Origin: Candidatus Gastranaerophilales bacterium
Lineage (GTDB): Bacteria; Cyanobacteriota; Vampirovibrionia; Gastranaerophilales; Gastranaerophilaceae
Reading direction: 5' to 3'
Assembly (NCBI GenBank): GCA_944323155.1
Contig: CALURL010000016.1
Location: 1-32,853 of the forward strand
DNA: 32,853 nt
This document shows, piece after piece, positions 15,393 to 32,853 of this stretch (its first letter is position 1; each line of letters starts with the position of its first letter). The notes under the pieces were generated by a model that was given only the letters and a program-made list of their open reading frames with translations, had not been told where the DNA came from and did not search any database. Position numbers and translations under genes: made by a program.

Positions 15393-16634
15393 ATGGTTAA
15401 ATATTACTACAGTGCGCTAAAAGATAATAAACTGCTGGTTAAGGGCGAAATTGAGGCCTTGAATCCTCGTGACGCCCGTGAAAAAATCCGCCAGCTCGGT
15501 TTTTTGCCAACAAAAATTTATATGGAAGAACAGGAAATTCCGTCTCAAATTTCTTCTGAATCTGCAAGTTACGGGATTTCCGATACTTCTGTAACCAGTT
15601 TAAGTCTTAATGACAAAATAAATTTTACAAGCCAATTGCAGGTAATGCTGTCTTCTGGAATATCTATTTTAGATGCTTTGCAGGCAATTGAACAAAATTC
15701 TCCGCGCGTAAAGCTTTGTAAAATAGCCGCAAGACTTCGAAAGGATATTACTTCCGGAATGACATTTACTCAGGCTTTACAAAAAAATTATTCTCAAGTA
15801 TTTGGAGCAGTCTATGTTGGTTTATGCGTTTCTGGAGAAGCGTCTGGAGAATTAGATGTTACGCTTGACAGAATGTTGACTCTTTTGAGGAAAGAGCAGG
15901 GGATAAAAGATAAAGTTGTTCGTGCATCAATTTATCCGGCTGTTTTAATTTTGATAATGTTTGGTGTGCTTTTGCTTTTTGCCAAAGTTGTTTTTCCTGC
16001 ATTTGCCGGCGTAATAACTTTTAATGGAGGAAATATTCCATTATTAGCTGCATTGCTAATGGGAATTTGCAATTTCGTTTCTAATTTTTGGTATTTAATA
16101 ATTTTAGCTGGTATAGGGGGAGTTTTCGGAGTTATAAATCTTATGAAAAATCCTCAATTCAGACAAAAAGTGGACAAATTTATAATGGAAATTCCTGTAT
16201 TGTCTGAATTTGTAAGATATATAAATCTTTCTAATTTTATGAGTGTATTGCAGGTTTCTTATGATGCCGGTGTTACAATACTTGAGGGACTTGGATTGGC
16301 TAAACAAACAGTAAAAAATACTATTGTTTTAAGGCAGGTTAACAGTGCACTAAATCTTGTAAAGCAGGGGAAAAATCTTTCTGAATCATTCGGGGTAACT
16401 GATTTACTGCCGAATGAACTTTTGATGATGGTTGCTACAGGCGAAAAATCCGGTACTCTGGGCAAAATGCTCGCTGATGCTGTAAATGTTATTGATAGAA
16501 AAGTTGAAATGGTGCTTGAAACTCTAACAAGATTATTTGAACCTGCTTGTATTGTTATTCTTGGCGGCTTTGTTTTGTTCATTGCCCTTGCATTTTATCA
16601 ATTATATACAGGAATGCTTGGCAGTTTATTTTAA
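15393..16634 (+). CDS. Type II secretion / type IV pilus platform protein GspF/PilC
   Basis: This inner-membrane platform protein couples the cytoplasmic assembly ATPase to pilin insertion. The 413-residue protein has the two-repeat T2SSF architecture. The first cytoplasmic repeat is residues 75-175 (NFTSQLQVMLSSGISILDAL, SGEASGELD at 147-155), with membrane helices near 182-205, 214-250 and 385-408. The second repeat is residues 275-375 (FMSVLQVSYDAGVTILEGL, MVATGEKSGTLGKML). The N-terminal domain (residues 1-45) is the usual ARM-type lead. The next gene is a prepilin, as expected. Neither the ATPase nor the prepilin peptidase is in this window. Confidence 0.93.
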   Translation: MVKYYYSALKDNKLLVKGEIEALNPRDAREKIRQLGFLPTKIYMEEQEIPSQISSESASYGISDTSVTSLSLNDKINFTSQLQVMLSSGISILDALQAIEQNSPRVKLCKIAARLRKDITSGMTFTQALQKNYSQVFGAVYVGLCVSGEASGELDVTLDRMLTLLRKEQGIKDKVVRASIYPAVLILIMFGVLLLFAKVVFPAFAGVITFNGGNIPLLAALLMGICNFVSNFWYLIILAGIGGVFGVINLMKNPQFRQKVDKFIMEIPVLSEFVRYINLSNFMSVLQVSYDAGVTILEGLGLAKQTVKNTIVLRQVNSALNLVKQGKNLSESFGVTDLLPNELLMMVATGEKSGTLGKMLADAVNVIDRKVEMVLETLTRLFEPACIVILGGFVLFIALAFYQLYTGMLGSLF

Positions 16635-16670: not shown

Positions 16671-16699
16671 TATAAAGAAAAATAAAAGGAGATATTTAT

Positions 16700-17438
16700 A
16701 TGATGAAAAATTTATTTAGAAGTCAAGTTGGGGGGGGGGGGCAAAGGCCGCGTAGTCTCCTTTTCCAACCTTAGTAACGGTTTTACGTTAGCAGAAGTTC
16801 TGGTTACTTTAGGAATTATTGGCGTTGTATCAGCAATGACTGTTCCAACTTTGATGCAAAACCATCAAAGAAAAACTTATGTTGTTCAATTACATAAAGT
16901 TTATAATGAATTAACACAGGCTGCTGAAATGTATATGACAGATCATAATGCCGTTAATATGCGTGAAGCAGGAATAAATTCGCAAGAAGCTTTGGATGAA
17001 TTTGTTAAAAGCTCTTTTAAAGTAATTCAAGACTGCGGAGCTACGAGTACACCCTGTTTTGCTCCAAATTCTGAATACAGAAAAATTTCAGGTGTTGCTG
17101 CGGTTGGTACAGAATTAAAAGGTTATGTTACATTAGCAAGCGGCGTTTCGCTCGGATATACTTATGGTTTACATGAAACCGCAAGTTATATTGCAACATT
17201 TGATATTGATATAAATGGGCAGCAAGGACCTAATATTGCAGGACGTGATGTTTTTACCTTCATGTTGTATAATAATGGCATTGTAGATGATGGAGCTGAA
17301 AAAACAACTGCTACTGCACCATTAAGTGAAGAAGAAAGAGAAACTTTGTTTAATGAAAGATGTATGTCCTCCACAACTGATCAGTGGTCAGGCTGTTTCG
17401 GAAAACTTCTTAATGACAACTGGGAAATGAATTATTAA
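16700..17438 (+). CDS. Prepilin-like protein 1, leader out of frame at a G12 tract
   Basis: This is a type IV prepilin/pseudopilin-like protein. Translation from the ATG with a good AAAAGGAG ribosome site (16700) gives MMKNLFRSQVGGGG, crosses 12 G and hits a stop at 16772. The pilin body lies in another frame, open from a TTG at 16728: GKGRVVSFSNLSNG, then the cleavage-type core FTLAEVLVTLGIIGVVSAMT. Losing one G (or gaining two) joins both into a 27-residue leader cut at G/F. The mature part is about 218 residues and has GRDVFTF and several cysteines. It follows the GspF gene and ends at a strong terminator. I read it as a phase-variable gene drawn in its off state. A fixed frameshift or homopolymer read error is possible. 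Confidence 0.8.
16730..16741 (+). repeat. Poly-G tract (12 G) in prepilin leader
   Basis: Twelve consecutive G interrupt the leader of prepilin 1, ten codons after its ATG. In an AT-rich genome such a tract is far outside background. The pilin frame is restored at 11 or 14 G. Confidence 0.95.
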
Positions 17439-17445
17439 ATACTAT

Positions 17446-17480
17446 AAAGTCCTGATTAATTAATCAGGACTTTTTATTTT
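17446..17480 (+). terminator. Rho-independent terminator after prepilin 1
   Basis: A perfect 28-nt palindrome at 17446-17473 (arms AAAGTCCTGATTAA and its complement) is followed by TTTTTATTTT. It lies between the prepilin and a convergent small gene and probably serves mainly the prepilin. Confidence 0.9.
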
Positions 17481-17507
17481 TTATTGGCTTATTATGGCGT
17501 ATTGATA

Positions 17508-17711
17508 TTAGTTATTGCTTAATACAAGTTTGAAAGTGGCAAGATTTTTGATAGAAAGCATTGTATGTTTTACATGCTGTTCTTTAGAAATATTGAATAT
17601 ACGAATAATGCGTTGAATTTCTTCCAAGTCTTTTCTTGATTCAATTTTATAGACGTTTTTAATTGGGTCTGAAACCACTGACATTAATGTATTTAATTCC
17701 TGTTCTTTCAT
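17508..17711 (-). CDS. Hypothetical 67-residue protein
   Basis: This small soluble protein is not recognised. It opens MKEQELNTLMSVVSDPIKNV and is mostly helical and basic in its second half (ISKEQHVKHTMLSIKNLATF). AGAGGA lies about 10 bases before the ATG. It sits alone between the prepilin terminator and mazG. No function can be given. Confidence 0.55.
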   Translation of the reverse strand: MKEQELNTLMSVVSDPIKNVYKIESRKDLEEIQRIIRIFNISKEQHVKHTMLSIKNLATFKLVLSNN

Positions 17712-17844
17712 AATATCTTATCCTCTTTCCTGTATATTTATATAAAGGATTTTTTTCTAAAAAAATTGCTTTTTAGGTAAATATATTTGTAATATTTGTT
17801 TACAATGTCTGGAAATTTTTGTTATCAAGGTGTGTGAGGAGGGT

Positions 17845-18609
17845 TTATAATTCTGATTTTGCTTTGTTCCACAAGTCGTCATATTCTTTAAAATTGTATT
17901 CTTCAAGCGGCTTGTCTGCCAGTTCTTCCATTTTGCGGAAGCGTTTTACAAATTTTTTATTAGCTTTTAGTAAGGCTTGTTCTGCATCAATTTTGTTCCA
18001 GCGGGCTAAGTTCACTACTGCAAAAAGAATGTCTCCCAATTCTTCTTCCATATGTTCAGGGTTCTGTTCTTTTTTTGCGTCTTTAAACTCCTGAAATTCT
18101 GAATTAATACATTTGTACAATTCGTCTTCATTTGGCCATTCAAAGCCTGTTTTAACAGCTTTTTTACTGATTTTTTGAGCACTCATCAGGGCAGATTGGG
18201 ATTTAGAAATTCCATCCATTGCAGATTTTCTGTGGGGCTTTTCCTCTTGTTTAAGTTTTTCCCAGTTATCCATAACTTCATTCGAATTGTTAACTTTTGT
18301 GTTCCCGAAAACATGCGGATGCCGGTGAATTAATTTATCTTTAAGAGTTTTAGCAACTTTTTCTATATCAAAAGCACCTTCCTCTTGAGCGATCTGTGCA
18401 TGCAAAAGAACCTGCAAGAGTACGTCACCGAGTTCTTCTTGAAGATGTTTCATGTCATTATCATCAATTGCATCAACAGCTTCATACGCTTCTTCAAGCA
18501 TGTTTCTTCGTAAACTGCTGTGAGTCTGTTCTCTATCCCAAGGGCAGCCTTGAGGTGAGCGTAATTTCGCTATAACTCCTATAAGCTCTTCTAGATTTTC
18601 ATATCCCAT
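17845..18609 (-). CDS. mazG: Nucleoside triphosphate pyrophosphohydrolase MazG
   Basis: MazG hydrolyses NTPs to NMP and pyrophosphate, cleaning the pool of damaged nucleotides and lowering ppGpp precursors in some species. The 254-residue protein has two MazG domains. The first has LRSPQGCPWDREQTHSSLRR (17-36), the metal-binding EEAYE (39-43) and EELGDVL (58-64). The second, near residues 175-230, has EEELGDILFAVVNLARW. Length and motifs are typical of the full two-domain form. The gene is monocistronic, with a 133-bp gap downstream (17712-17844) in which I see no gene. Confidence 0.96.
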   Translation of the reverse strand: MGYENLEELIGVIAKLRSPQGCPWDREQTHSSLRRNMLEEAYEAVDAIDDNDMKHLQEELGDVLLQVLLHAQIAQEEGAFDIEKVAKTLKDKLIHRHPHVFGNTKVNNSNEVMDNWEKLKQEEKPHRKSAMDGISKSQSALMSAQKISKKAVKTGFEWPNEDELYKCINSEFQEFKDAKKEQNPEHMEEELGDILFAVVNLARWNKIDAEQALLKANKKFVKRFRKMEELADKPLEEYNFKEYDDLWNKAKSEL

Positions 18610-18746
18610 AATATTTATTTTATCATAAAAAATTTCTAACTAAAGTATAATTTTTAATTTAAAGAATACATCAAAAGGTTGATAACATATAAATATCGTA
18701 TGGTATTCTTATAATGTAATAAAATTAGACGAAAGGATATTTAATT

Positions 18747-19271
18747 ATGGCAAATTTAACTATTCCATCTATTCGTGCTAGACTTTTCAATTCAAGTAAG
18801 CATGAAGAAGTAAAATCAAGCAATGACAAGGCTTCAAATCCGTTTCAACAAACATCATTTAAAGGAAATGTTTTAACCGCTGATGTTTTTGAATCATCAA
18901 AATCAAAAGACAATCAACCTAGTTTTACAGGAAGATTAGCTTCTGTTCCTGCTAAAAGCAAGTTGTATTTAAGTGCAATGGTTGGTTCTATCAATAATTT
19001 TGGAAATAAAATTTCTGAAAAATTCCATGCAGGTGTTGAATCAATTAATGAATTCTGCAAAAAAGCTTCAGATAAATTTTCAAATCTATGGTCTACTATG
19101 AAAAATACAGAAATCAAATTTGATTTCCTTGATAATATAAAAAATGCTATGAATCCTGGTGTCAGAAAAAATGATATCGGAAAACTTGATTTAAGCAATG
19201 ATGATATATATAACAGTACAAAAGAATTGTTCTCAAGCAAAGCTAATGCTTGGGCAGAATCTATAGCGTAA
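18747..19271 (+). CDS. Hypothetical protein with two FKG/FTG motifs
   Basis: This 174-residue protein is not recognised. The first 65 residues are disordered and Ser/Lys/Asn-rich and contain two short similar sites, QTSFKGNV and QPSFTGRL. The rest is predicted helical (IPSIRARLF at the start, later SINNFGNKISEKFHAGVESI and NEFCKKASDKFSNLWSTMKN). It has no signal peptide. GAAAGGA lies before the ATG, and promoter-like TGGTATTCTTATAAT (18701-18715) sits upstream. It heads a two-gene operon with the next gene (22-bp gap). Confidence 0.65.
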   Translation: MANLTIPSIRARLFNSSKHEEVKSSNDKASNPFQQTSFKGNVLTADVFESSKSKDNQPSFTGRLASVPAKSKLYLSAMVGSINNFGNKISEKFHAGVESINEFCKKASDKFSNLWSTMKNTEIKFDFLDNIKNAMNPGVRKNDIGKLDLSNDDIYNSTKELFSSKANAWAESIA

Positions 19272-19293
19272 GCAATTAGTGGAGGTTGAGTAA

Positions 19294-19665
19294 ATGGTAG
19301 ATAAAAGAACTGAAAAAGATGTTACTAATATAATAGAAGGTTTGAGAATGAACCAGGATCCTAGATCTATTGATTTGTTAGAAGATGTTGGTACTAACTC
19401 AAGCGTTGATGCAATTAGAGAATTAACTTCTCGTGCTTTGGTTAAGAAAAACCAGCATGATTCATTAAAAGTTGTAATTACTAACAAAGGAAAAGGCATT
19501 AATGATATGTCTACAGTAGTTGCGATGAGTACTATTAATGAATTACTTTCTCTAGATGACAAAACAGAAGCTATGAAAGTATTAGAAGACACAGTTAATA
19601 TGCATTCTGATGAAGAAGTTAGAGATAATGCGCGTTCTGTAAAAGCTTTGATGGCTTTATCATAA
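19294..19665 (+). CDS. Hypothetical protein, possible HEAT-like helical repeat
   Basis: This 123-residue soluble protein is not recognised. Helix pairs recur (DPRSIDLLEDVGTNSSVDAI then RELTSRALV; VVAMSTINELLSLDDKTEAM then KVLEDTV; SDEEVRDNARSVKALMAL), which recalls HEAT-type repeats. GGAGG lies 10 bases before the ATG. It follows the FKG/FTG-motif protein gene in an operon and is closed by a strong terminator, so both are probably well expressed as a unit. Confidence 0.65.
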   Translation: MVDKRTEKDVTNIIEGLRMNQDPRSIDLLEDVGTNSSVDAIRELTSRALVKKNQHDSLKVVITNKGKGINDMSTVVAMSTINELLSLDDKTEAMKVLEDTVNMHSDEEVRDNARSVKALMALS

Positions 19666-19706
19666 ATTACGCGGCAAAATATTTAAATTTGCCTATTTCA
19701 TATATA

Positions 19707-19741
19707 ATAAAAGCACATGATGCATCATGTGCTTTTATATT
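19707..19741. terminator. Strong palindromic terminator
   Basis: A perfect 32-nt palindrome at 19707-19738 (core AAGCACATGATG and its complement) ends in TTTTAT on both strands. It lies between convergent genes (ending at 19665 and 19765) and can serve both. Confidence 0.85.
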
Positions 19742-19764
19742 GTTAATTATCGAAAATTATTATA

Positions 19765-21171
19765 TTATTTTTTACTAAACCAGCTTATGATTTTTTCTAT
19801 CAAACCTTCATCTTCTTGCATCTGCATGTCTGTGTGTTCGAGTTTTTCAAGTTTTGATTTTATTTTTTCGTAATCTGGTGTTCCTTTGCCAACTTCAAGG
19901 TATTTATTATAAAATTCTATGGCAGCAGGTTTGTTTTTTATTTTTTCATAACACTGGGCTAATTTTTTTATGTTTAGCGCATTTCTAGAATCCAATTCAT
20001 AAAGCTTTTCTAAGTATTCAGCCTGAGAACGATAGTCGCCTATACTTTCTCTAAATTCTGCTAGTTTTTCTAGAGCTTTTTTATCTTTTGGATCTAGTTG
20101 TGATAATCTTTCATAAAATTCCATAGCATGGTTTTTGTCACCGCTTGCTTCTAAAAGCTGTGCAAGTGTACTTACTAGATTTTCGTCGTCATTCTTTAAC
20201 TGATATGCGTTTAAAAATTCATTGATTGCAACATCTTTATCACCACGGATTAAATTGTATTTTCCCCAGTTAAGTGCTGCATTATAATCATCATTTTTAT
20301 TTTCATAAATTAAAGCTTTCATCTGATAAGTCAATGGTGAATTTTTACTGTATTTGTCAAATTCATTAACACATTCAAGGGCTTTGTCATAATCTTCATT
20401 CATATAATAATATTGCGCTTTTAGCGAATAATATTGACCGTTATTTTTATACTGACTTTCAAGTTCAGTAAGCTTTTTGAAAGCTTCATCCTTTTTGTCG
20501 CATTCAAGCAGGCATTTTATTTTAGTAAGCTCATCGGTAGTAATTTCCATAGCTTTTTCAGCCTGACCATCGCGAATGTAGATTTGAGCAAGAGCTTCAA
20601 GAATATTTTTGTCTTCATAACCGTGTTTTCTGGCTCTTTCAAGAACATCAATTGCGCTGGCTTTTGCATCTTCTTTAATGTATAAATTCGCAAGCTTTAG
20701 GAAAGCTTCTTCCGGTGTATCTTCAAAATCTGTAAGCTTCAAATATTCATCAATGGCCTTCATTGTCTGCCCTGTCTGCTCATAAAGAGTTGCAAGTACA
20801 AATCTCGCGTTATTAGCTTCTTTTTCTTCCTGAGTATTTGCCAGAGCTTTTTTGTAATCATTTATTGCATGTTCAAATTTTTGTTCAACCTGATGAAGAT
20901 TGCCTCTATAGATGTAATATTTATACCTGTCTGTATTTACATAAATATCCATTAGCTGTTCGTATGCAAGTGCATTTGTTGCATCAAACTCCAGAATTTT
21001 TGAATAATATTCAGCAGCTTCGTCTTTTTTGTCAAGAAGAATTGATAAATGCCCTAATCGTTCTATTATACTAATATCTTTCGGATTGTTTTCGTAAAGC
21101 CTTTTATATTCTTCATAAGCTTCATTGTATTGTTCATTTTCTTCGAATTGTTCTGCTGTTTGTAAACTCAT
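19765..21171 (-). CDS. Tetratricopeptide repeat protein
   Basis: The 468-residue protein is built almost entirely of TPR helix pairs from residue 1 to about 440. Examples are EQYNEAYEEYKRLYENNPKD, KDEAAEYYSKILEFDATNAL and NHAMEFYERLSQLDPKDKKA. TPR arrays mediate protein-protein binding. There is no signal peptide. The last 12 residues (GLIEKIISWFSKK) form a short amphipathic helix that could touch the membrane. GGAGT precedes the ATG. It stands alone. No partner can be named. Confidence 0.9.
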   Translation of the reverse strand: MSLQTAEQFEENEQYNEAYEEYKRLYENNPKDISIIERLGHLSILLDKKDEAAEYYSKILEFDATNALAYEQLMDIYVNTDRYKYYIYRGNLHQVEQKFEHAINDYKKALANTQEEKEANNARFVLATLYEQTGQTMKAIDEYLKLTDFEDTPEEAFLKLANLYIKEDAKASAIDVLERARKHGYEDKNILEALAQIYIRDGQAEKAMEITTDELTKIKCLLECDKKDEAFKKLTELESQYKNNGQYYSLKAQYYYMNEDYDKALECVNEFDKYSKNSPLTYQMKALIYENKNDDYNAALNWGKYNLIRGDKDVAINEFLNAYQLKNDDENLVSTLAQLLEASGDKNHAMEFYERLSQLDPKDKKALEKLAEFRESIGDYRSQAEYLEKLYELDSRNALNIKKLAQCYEKIKNKPAAIEFYNKYLEVGKGTPDYEKIKSKLEKLEHTDMQMQEDEGLIEKIISWFSKK

Positions 21172-21257
21172 TTGAGACTCCTTTAATTCTTACTTTTTAT
21201 ATAATTATATCTGAAAAATAAATATTTTAATAACCTATCTGATGTGATTTAAACATG

Positions 21258-21286
21258 TTGTATTGTGCACTTCAATATGATAATAT
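21258..21286 (+). promoter_or_regulatory. Promoter of prepilin gene 2
   Basis: TTGTAT (21258-21263), a 17-bp spacer and TAATAT (21281-21286) lie 38 bases before the prepilin ATG, followed by an AAAAAGGAG ribosome site like that of prepilin 1. Confidence 0.5.
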
Positions 21287-21324
21287 GAATTTGTTGTGAA
21301 AGTTTAAAAAAGGAGATTTTATTT

Positions 21325-22205
21325 ATGAAGAGCTTATTTAAAAGTCAAGTTGGGGGGGGGGCACGCGCCTAGAGCGTGTTTGTGCTACGCACGTAGATAT
21401 CTGCACCAATGTTCGAGGGAGCTTAAATGTTTTGGATAGGTGTGCTACGCACGTAGATACCTGCACCAATATTCAAGATATTTTAAATATTTTTGAGAGT
21501 AGTTACACTTTATTCAGACCAGCAAAAGAATCCAAAAGAAAAACCGCCTTTACTTTAGCTGAGGTATTAATTACTTTGGGAATTATCGGCGTTGTTGCAG
21601 CTCTAACTCTTCCATCTGTTATTAATAATACTCAGAAAAAAGAAATTCAGGAAGGTTTAAAGAAGGCGTACTCAACTTTGCAGCAAGCCCTGCTGATGTA
21701 TCAGAATGATACCGGCGAAACTCCAACTAGACAGTCATTTATTACTAAAGCTGGATCATTGAAAACATCACTTTTCCCTTATTTTACAGGGGGATATGAT
21801 TGTGGTAATGGGTCTGAGGAAACTGCATGTATAAAGCTAATAAATTCTGTGACAAATAATCCATATAGGAATTTTAGCAACAATGCTCAGGTAAATGCTA
21901 TTTATTTTGACGACGGACAATTTATTCTTTCCGATGGTATGATGTATTTCTTTGAAAATAATGATAATGGTGATTCCGCGGTTACTTTTATTCATGTTGA
22001 TGTTAATGGAATTAAAAAACGTCCAAATCAGTGGGGAAGGGATTTGTTTACTTTTGAATTAACTGATTCCGGAAAGCTTTTGCCTGTTGGTGCAGATGGT
22101 ACTCACTTTGATGATGATGAATATTGCAGCAGCACAAGTATTTCCGCTAATAATGGCATTGCCTGTACAAATAGAGCATTGTATGATGCTTCTTTCTGGA
22201 AGTAA
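21325..22205 (+). CDS. Prepilin-like protein 2, leader out of frame at a G10 tract
   Basis: This is a type IV prepilin/pseudopilin-like protein, a paralogue of prepilin 1. The ATG at 21325 has an AAAAAGGAG ribosome site and gives MKSLFKSQVGGGARA, then a stop at 21370. The pilin body is in another frame that is open from inside the G tract, with no good start of its own (the first non-tract option is a TTG at 21432). One extra G (11) or two fewer (8) joins them. The joined leader would be about 75 residues, very long for a prepilin. It includes a doubled CATHVD-CTN segment before KRKTA/FTLAEVLITLGIIGVVAALT. The residue before the expected cut is Ala, not Gly. The mature part shares DVNG and GRDLFTF with prepilin 1 and has cysteine pairs. 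Confidence 0.8.
21352..21361 (+). repeat. Poly-G tract (10 G) in prepilin leader
   Basis: Ten consecutive G follow AGTCAAGTT, exactly as in prepilin 1. The pilin frame is restored at 11 or 8 G. Confidence 0.95.
21381..21500 (+). repeat. Tandem duplication of a 60-bp unit with hairpin core
   Basis: Units at 21381-21440 and 21441-21500 match at about 49 of 60 bases. The first 30 bases differ at one position only. Each core contains the palindrome CTACG-CA-CGTAG. The unit length keeps frame and encodes CATHVD-CTN plus a more variable ten residues. The cores are clearly GC-richer than the surrounding genes. Confidence 0.85.
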
Positions 22206-31917: not shown

Positions 31918-32853
31918 TTATAAGGCACCGCCGCCGCCATCTCTGAAGTAGTCGTAATGTCTTGTATCATCATAGTTGTTAATATATTCCGCTTCAACAT
32001 TTTTCTGGAATTCAGTTTTAGGAGCTCCAACTCTTGTTGCAAGCAGTGCATCAATATCAGGAGTCAAACTTAATTCAAAGTGGAAACGACCGTATTTTCT
32101 ATCTTGTTCCCAGCGGTTGTTAATGAGCGGATAGCCCCAGTATAGTCTAGCACTTAAATCGCCTGGAAGTTGTACTCTTAACCCCATACCAACAGATGCT
32201 AAGAAGTAGCTGCCTCCATAAATATCTTCTCTTGCTGAGGGGAAAATACCTGCATGGTCTGCAAATATTGCACCTTTAACATATCTGCCGATAAATGGAA
32301 TTTTTTCTCCTGTGCGAGGGCTTGTTATTTCTCTTGGCAATAACGGGAACATCAATTCACCACTGATGAAGTATCCGTTTTTACCAATCATAATACCTTC
32401 TTGATAACCTCTTACAGTTGCCAAACCACCTGATTGAATTTGATCAAGGTAAGGAATTTGTTTGTCACCAGGTACGATTTGATAATTACTTCTCAATTGA
32501 CCGATTACACCATGAGAGAAATCGTGTAATCTTACAACGCTGCCGCTGTATTTAAAGTAATTGTTATCTCTCTGGCTGTTAAATATCGGGAATGAATAAG
32601 CTGCGTTTTGATTTAAATACCAAATACCGTATTTAGTATCTTTTCTTAATTGTAAAGCGACTTCTGCACTTGTAATCTGGTCAGTTCCGCCAATCCAGTC
32701 GTCTAGAATATCAATACTACTGAATGTTCTTGAACGTTTGTAGTTTAAGCCTCCAAATGCTTTTAATTCTAAGCCCGGTTTTCTAATGATTGGTTGTGAA
32801 TAGTAAAGTGAATATTGATAAGCATTACTACCCATGCCTAAATCCCTGAAATC
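31918..32853 (-). CDS. TpsB/Omp85-type outer-membrane transporter (ShlB/FhaC-like), C-terminal part
   Basis: The frame is open to the window edge (DFRDLG continues before the first internal Met at 32835), so only the last 311 residues are seen. They form a C-terminal beta-barrel. The signature SGGLATVRGYQEG followed by NGYFISGELMFPLLP matches the two-partner secretion / Omp85 barrel (ShlB/FhaC/HecB). The last barrel strand, FHFELSL, is followed by an unusual tail of about 45 residues ending in GGGGAL, instead of a terminal aromatic residue. Family members export a large surface protein through the outer membrane or insert barrels. Its partner would be upstream, outside the window. This is direct evidence for an outer membrane. 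Confidence 0.85.
   Translation of the reverse strand, partial: DFRDLGMGSNAYQYSLYYSQPIIRKPGLELKAFGGLNYKRSRTFSSIDILDDWIGGTDQITSAEVALQLRKDTKYGIWYLNQNAAYSFPIFNSQRDNNYFKYSGSVVRLHDFSHGVIGQLRSNYQIVPGDKQIPYLDQIQSGGLATVRGYQEGIMIGKNGYFISGELMFPLLPREITSPRTGEKIPFIGRYVKGAIFADHAGIFPSAREDIYGGSYFLASVGMGLRVQLPGDLSARLYWGYPLINNRWEQDRKYGRFHFELSLTPDIDALLATRVGAPKTEFQKNVEAEYINNYDDTRHYDYFRDGGGGAL

Follow-up and report, generated by a model that had tools for sequence, protein, structure and literature searches.

A likely genome-wide contingency system of type IV pilin-like genes with poly-G tracts in their leaders in a Gastranaerophilales bacterium

Switching of pilus genes by poly-G tracts is already known from Neisseria pilC and from Bifidobacterium. 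In the sortase-dependent pili of Bifidobacterium, a G tract of about 10-12 lies early in the first pilin gene; the reference sequence is out of frame, an in-frame length leads to pili, and slippage of the tract is enriched in the mouse gut (PMC9187656). In Neisseria, pilC and other pilus-related genes carry poly-G/C tracts with modal lengths of 9-10 that set them ON or OFF by frame, and a genome holds 15-20 poly-G tracts on average, distributed among many classes of genes (PMC5953494). Campylobacter genomes have phasomes in which many G/C tracts yield combinatorial ON/OFF states (PMC8355987). Here we describe a stretch of 32,853 nt from a Candidatus Gastranaerophilales bacterium (contig CALURL010000016.1 of assembly GCA_944323155.1; hereafter “the window”), which holds two type IV pilin-like genes, each with a G tract between its start codon and its prepilin core. 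The lineage consists of small-genome, non-photosynthetic relatives of cyanobacteria that probably dwell in the gut. We consider it likely that both genes are members of a contingency system that extends over the whole genome and comprises about 74 type IV-pilin-like genes, each phase-variable through slipped-strand replication.

The study genome (G000; relatives carry other G-numbers, and C-number:position gives contig and position, the window being contig C16) comprises 1.79 Mb in 34 contigs and is 99.66% complete. Genome-wide, we analysed the stretches around tracts and pilins, excepting the tracts at C26:1168 and C29:64; with a GC content of 34%, these stretches are AT-rich. Runs of at least eight G numbered 93 in the genome, as compared to about 2 expected from base composition. 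Some 92 runs had a length of at least 9, and roughly four fifths lay in the pilin family. Matches to the N_methyl/prepilin motif came to 84, an exceptional count for 1.8 Mb.

Two gene sets were used. The strict set required an N_methyl match, a G/C run of at least 8 no more than 400 nt upstream and a ribosome-binding site with ATG (RBS-ATG), and it took in 68 of the 84 pilins. Of these 68 genes, 67 could be read from ATG to core in exactly one of the three tract phases; the remaining gene (C6:50675) is broken. The relaxed set, which also admits pilins under the Pfam threshold, was confined to genes that have an RBS-ATG and a tract and in which a frame is open through to the core; it contains 74 genes. 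From tract to core, the ON frame of these genes runs through 2,061 codons with zero stops, which is partly built in because the set was selected for an open route (the unfiltered figure is the 67 of 68 above). The other two frames were open in 0 and 6 genes.

The register of the 74 genes was nearly uniform: 72 need a tract of 2 mod 3 to be ON, one needs 12 and one needs 10. Tract lengths were 10 (61 genes), 11 (10 genes), 12 (two genes) and 9 (one gene). As assembled, 61 genes stand at -1, three at +1 and 10 are ON, nine of the latter being called at exactly 11. In the -1 frame a stop occurs within five codons in 70 of the 74, commonly a TAG after the flank CANNSGC. Every gene has its own RBS and ATG, and no internal RBS-ATG was found between tract and core in any of the 74. 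In these genes a tract of at least 8 G/C in the coding region thus joins a start to an otherwise intact frame, the property by which we recognize a phase-variable locus, and both ON and OFF lengths are present among homologous loci (paralogues and relatives), covering 9-12 in the study genome and 8-15 over eight genomes. A first-pass annotation, made from the window alone, had suggested that further copies would make a larger system; 74 pilins with a common ON register far exceed that expectation.

The sequence from tract to core is 25 to 545 nt long, and the whole leaders have about 20 to about 200 residues. Leaders of type IV prepilins usually have about 5-30 residues. Interspersed repeats (GTGCTACGCACGTAGATA...) lie in frame within many of the leaders, which reach about 200 residues, both in the study genome and in relatives; the repeats of relatives encode CHPELVSGS- and SPRPLGEGAR-type peptides. 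We also considered recombinational cassettes of the pilE/pilS type, with one expression locus and silent copies that lack a start. This model was rejected, as 74 of 74 genes have their own RBS and ATG.

The two window genes (Table 1) display the features of a type IV prepilin, namely a leader, a G/A-F-T-L-x-E cleavage-methylation motif and a hydrophobic N-terminal helix. NCBIfam equivalog scores for a specific pilin identity (GspG, ComGC, ComGE, PilA) were all under cut-off for both. As the first-pass annotation had noted, one gene has 12 G and the other 10, in each case between an RBS-ATG leader and the core, and frame analysis agreed with it that both are out of frame as assembled and ON at 11: the FTLAEVL core is reached at tract lengths of 2 mod 3 and at no others, and at 11 G the full-length prepilins have 245 (gene 1) and 293 residues (gene 2). 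The window contains 8 overlapping G8 matches, where shuffled sequence would give 0.03. The two loci lie at a distance of 4.6 kb from each other and are separated by unrelated genes. At the far end of the window, an Omp85/ShlB-like outer-membrane protein (31918-32835, Pfam E 8.6e-12) is encoded by a gene that the contig boundary cuts.

Table 1. Features of the two pilin loci in the window, with loci elsewhere in the study genome that are referred to in the text.
Feature	Position	Strand	Basis or detail
PilC/GspF-like inner-membrane pilus assembly protein	15393..16634	+	Pfam T2SSF PF00482 E 3.3e-42; ends 65 nt ahead of the first ATG of pilin 1
Pilin 1 ribosome-binding site AAAAGGAG	16684..16691	+	sequence
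Prepilin 1 conserved N-terminal leader MMKNLFRSQV	16700..16729	+	ATG 16700, alternative ATG 16703 (MKNLFRSQV); sequence, frame analysis
Pilin 1 G12 tract	16730..16741	+	ON at 11 (2 mod 3); +1/OFF as assembled, 24-residue product; sequence, frame analysis
Prepilin 1 remaining leader, predicted to be discarded, to the Gly ahead of the predicted cleavage site	16742..16781	+	site inferred from the GFTLAEV motif
Mature pilin 1 FTLAEVLVTLGIIGVVSAMT... (predicted), including stop codon	16782..17438	+	Pfam N_methyl PF07963 E 1.2e-5; TIGR02532 above cut-off
Pilin 1 core GFTLAEVLVTLGIIGVVSAMT	from 16779	+	sequence; stop at 17438
Pilin 2 ribosome-binding site AAAAGGAG	21308..21315	+	sequence
Prepilin 2 conserved N-terminal leader MKSLFKSQV	21325..21351	+	ATG 21325; sequence, frame analysis
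Pilin 2 G10 tract	21352..21361	+	ON at 11; -1/OFF as assembled, 15-residue product MKSLFKSQVGGGARA, then TAG; sequence, frame analysis
Prepilin 2 long leader, predicted to be discarded, 62-codon remainder	21362..21548	+	open solely in the 11-G frame; frame analysis
Interspersed repeat, two copies inside the prepilin 2 leader (..CATHVDICTN..)	21382-21410, 21442-21470	+	sequence
Mature pilin 2 FTLAEVLITLGIIGVVAALT... (predicted), including stop codon	21549..22205	+	Pfam N_methyl PF07963 E 1e-4; TIGR02532 above cut-off
Pilin 2 core AFTLAEVLITLGIIGVVAALT	from 21546	+	sequence; stop at 22205
Six large pilin-like loci	C4:127188, C6:24944, C4:138507, C10:78588, C12:29612, C20:21414		G000
In-frame non-pilin tracts	C2:502, C3:19079, C6:70214, C24:8252, C9:39856, C8:61421, C2:126675		G000 (L123, L133, L155, L187, L164, L163, L131)

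The leaders of the two window genes are far more alike than the proteins that follow them. Over the 45 nt ahead of the tract the pair is 84% identical (rank 10 of 1,485 gene pairs in the genome), in line with the near-identity claimed at first, and their mature parts are 34% identical (rank 416 among genome pairs). The claim that the sequence after the tract differs completely is slightly overstated, as the first 11 nt or so share the genome-wide pattern CAANCGCNTAG. Among 55 small pilins of the study genome the mature parts past residue 50 average 26% identity and the 45 nt ahead of the tract 69%, with no correlation between the one similarity and the other (Mantel r 0.02, p 0.36). Two adjacent genes on contig C5 have identical leaders and mature parts that are 29% identical. 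Over the 24 nt that follow the tract, identity is 65% within the study genome versus 52% between genomes at similar mature identity. In nine genes the tract runs in reverse, as C10-C11; on their G strand the flank C-G10-CA is present in 9 of 9 and the full CANNSGC in 6 of 9. These patterns fit, rather than prove, a short leader-tract module that has been copied or converted, sometimes in inverted orientation.

A mobile or convertible leader cassette had been proposed from the window, and its convertible character thus finds indirect support in the uncoupled similarities, the genome-specific flanks and the two tract orientations. The cassette sequence as then named did not survive. The motif AGTCAAGTT followed by at least six G has only its two window copies in the genome and none in 145 relatives, so it is not the cassette; no record bearing the name of this lineage was among its 50 matches elsewhere in bacteria. 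By the refutation test that came with the proposal (no further copies in the genome), the literal motif fails, and the cassette is better defined by its anatomy than by its sequence.

That anatomy is widespread in the family. Of 97 genomes of the family, 45 contain the pattern RBS-ATG-G8+, which thereby occurs in 23 of 41 genera; a reversed-pattern control was near zero. The pattern was absent in 6 genomes sampled from the two remaining families in the class, and elsewhere in the phylum, where the cyanobacterial motif GCGATCGC was seen, it was at background level, like the reversed control. The sampled loci of eight relatives have the same architecture with genome-specific leaders, for example MLNKDWNFGGG, MKNLFTRAGGG and METIDMTGLQGGG. 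Over the eight genomes in which frames were resolved, the study genome included, 20 of 156 loci were ON, which is under one third (p 7e-9). The usual OFF offset was -1 in G000, G022, G058, G068 and G006, and +1 in G003, G013 and G041. A common ON length of 11, as first supposed, applies to the study genome, G022 and G058; the other relatives need 9, 10, 11, 12 or 14.

Many contigs end at or near G tracts (many in G003; C17:3-11 in the study genome). Assemblies therefore break at the tract module, and such genomes probably have more pilins than were counted. The number of tracts correlated with the number of pilins in a set of 60 genomes (Spearman 0.65); five tract-free genomes nevertheless have at least 40 pilins, which indicates that the growth of the pilin family is in part a separate matter from the G switch. 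In G012 (L341-L367), with 83 pilins, most examined leaders carry C7-C9 (coding PP) in place of G tracts, just ahead of the prepilin core.

Each gene starts with an RBS, an ATG and a short leader, in most cases of nine codons. Next come a tract of about 10 G (in some genes C), a conserved short flank, a variable remainder of the leader and the prepilin core. In our proposal, slipped-strand replication would alter the tract by one base in either direction and thereby carry the core into or out of the frame of the ATG. At the assembled length nearly all genes are one base off ON and end a few codons past the tract, so that a one-base slip would turn the gene ON. The genome encodes one prepilin peptidase (PF01478, C6:49789-50187), which would remove tract and leader together and so keep the glycine run out of the mature filament. 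Any one cell would thus present a small and shifting selection from a highly diverse repertoire of pilins, a given gene being normally OFF. The sequences themselves establish the anatomy, the frames, the number of copies, the spread among relatives and the presence of the one peptidase; we infer that the tracts slip at a sufficient rate, that the prepilins are expressed, processed and assembled into filaments, and that the system has a role in surface variation and a benefit to the cell.

The main rival explanation is programmed slippage in transcription or translation: the DNA would be fixed, RNA polymerase or the ribosome would slip on the G run at a fixed frequency, and every cell would make all pilins at a low level from genes that are one base short. 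The near-uniform offset within a genome speaks for it (61 of the 64 OFF genes are at -1), as does the close stop of the -1 frame past the tract, which resembles known frameshift sites. Tract length also tracks the needed register within genomes (permutation p 5e-5): G068 has 9 G where 10 are needed and 10 G where 11 are needed, and at C1:130471, where the leader is 1 nt shorter, the tract is 11 with 12 needed, so that the gene remains one short. This fit of length to register we also count in favor of the contingency system. Against it, related genomes are off in opposite directions and would need opposite slips, ten genes of the study genome are plainly in frame, and tract lengths in G022, of the same genus, spread over 9-12. 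A downstream RNA hairpin as frameshift stimulator was sought and rejected, with a mean z of -0.04. On balance we regard programmed slippage as unlikely, and slipped-strand variation of the DNA as the better account.

It could also be that the real tracts are in frame and were miscalled by one base per data set. The sign of the offset is genome-specific, as expected of a data-set error, and annotated G-tract lengths are known to be open to error (PMC9187656). A control for such artefacts came from eight non-pilin genes with intragenic G/C tracts of 10-14, named by reading their sequences as sugar nucleotidyltransferase-like (one), glycosyltransferase-like (three), radical-SAM-like (one), Mur-ligase-like (one) and two others. 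Seven of the eight are in frame as assembled (lengths 10, 10, 10, 10, 10, 11 and 14) as compared to 10 of 74 pilin tracts (Fisher p 4e-5), a comparison that covers the study genome only. The tract offset in this assembly is therefore specific to pilins, and a general homopolymer miscall is unlikely there; moreover, nine of the ten ON pilins were called at one and the same length. We give miscalling little credence. One of the non-pilin tracts (C6:70214) carries the pilin-type flank CATAGGCC.

Least credible of all, and close to negligible in our estimate, is a decayed family of mostly frameshift-frozen pseudogenes with G runs as scars: truncated copies exist (C17:28147, C19:9437, C7:75997, C1:206473 and C1:220450) beside the broken C6:50675, yet frames are intact on either side of the tract, with the stop-free leader codons given above and full-length bodies (about 207-254 residues among the 55 genes that were compared), the tract alone breaks the frame, in one and the same place and to the same extent, and the design recurs in 23 genera.

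Several observations weigh against slipped-strand switching as we propose it. The evidence comes from consensus assemblies and from a single genome of the species, and consensus lengths hide mixtures; a search for same-species copies among viral contigs, sought for length polymorphism, found none. Because the loci share ancestry and have probably been homogenised, they are less independent than the p-values imply. With 61 of 74 tracts at exactly 10 G, lengths are tighter than free slippage would give. Some relatives maintain large pilin sets free of tracts: G053 has 90 pilins, with ordinary short leaders in 10 of 10 examined. In G010 (L310-L318), 7 of 10 sampled G11 tracts lie in a separate short upstream open reading frame (MQKIDIERISGGG...) that ends ahead of a pilin with its own RBS-ATG; such a tract may be a leftover, or it may exert an effect through coupling.

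ON genes were unevenly distributed. The large pilin-like proteins (>300 residues, with EVIIVML/EMMVVML cores) are ON in 4 of 6 cases as compared to 6 of 68 others (p 0.002), which would suit selection on state. In one of them, C4:138507, the leader is 2 nt shorter than in C20:21414 and G10 is in frame. A more far-reaching version of our proposal is a default-OFF lottery, in which the register would be held one slip from ON, each cell would display a small random subset of the roughly 74 highly different pilins, and the module would be copied among the genes, and also inverted, without regard to the pilin bodies behind it. The result would be a combinatorial surface driven by mutation. We offer this version tentatively, at slightly less than even odds.

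If the switches operate as proposed, this would be among the largest single-family contingency systems described, and strong cell-to-cell differences in surface filaments are predicted. A genome of 1.8 Mb would have 74 independent switches, and annotation at the level of genes would overlook the majority of a lineage's pilins, calling them truncated or wrongly started. Neighboring genera with G tracts, C tracts (G012), upstream open reading frames (G010) and plain leaders (G053) on similar pilin sets constitute a natural experiment, and the evolution of default-OFF registers becomes testable through reads and strains. The literature on Gastranaerophilaceae mentions pili; we found no paper that ties the family to phase variation, nor a pili paper that describes such switches, which is weak evidence as subscription literature was mostly outside the search.

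New here relative to the known poly-G pilus switches are the large number of copies on one gene family, their position within the prepilin leader, the common default-OFF register and the lineage. The Bifidobacterium system is alike in that a gut bacterium has an intragenic G tract in a pilin gene and a reference length out of frame. It differs in having one or two clusters per genome, sortase pili and Sec signals, while the study genome has about 74 dispersed genes for type IV-type prepilins whose tract lies in a leader that prepilin peptidase is expected to cut off. Neisseria likewise has poly-G/C tracts in pilus-related genes that are ON or OFF by frame, but its pilin diversity arises mainly by pilE/pilS recombination, whereas here each pilin has its own switch. 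Campylobacter tracts lie mainly in genes for glycans, capsule and flagellar modification; those of the study genome, in contrast, lie in pilins and share both a leader module and a default-OFF register.

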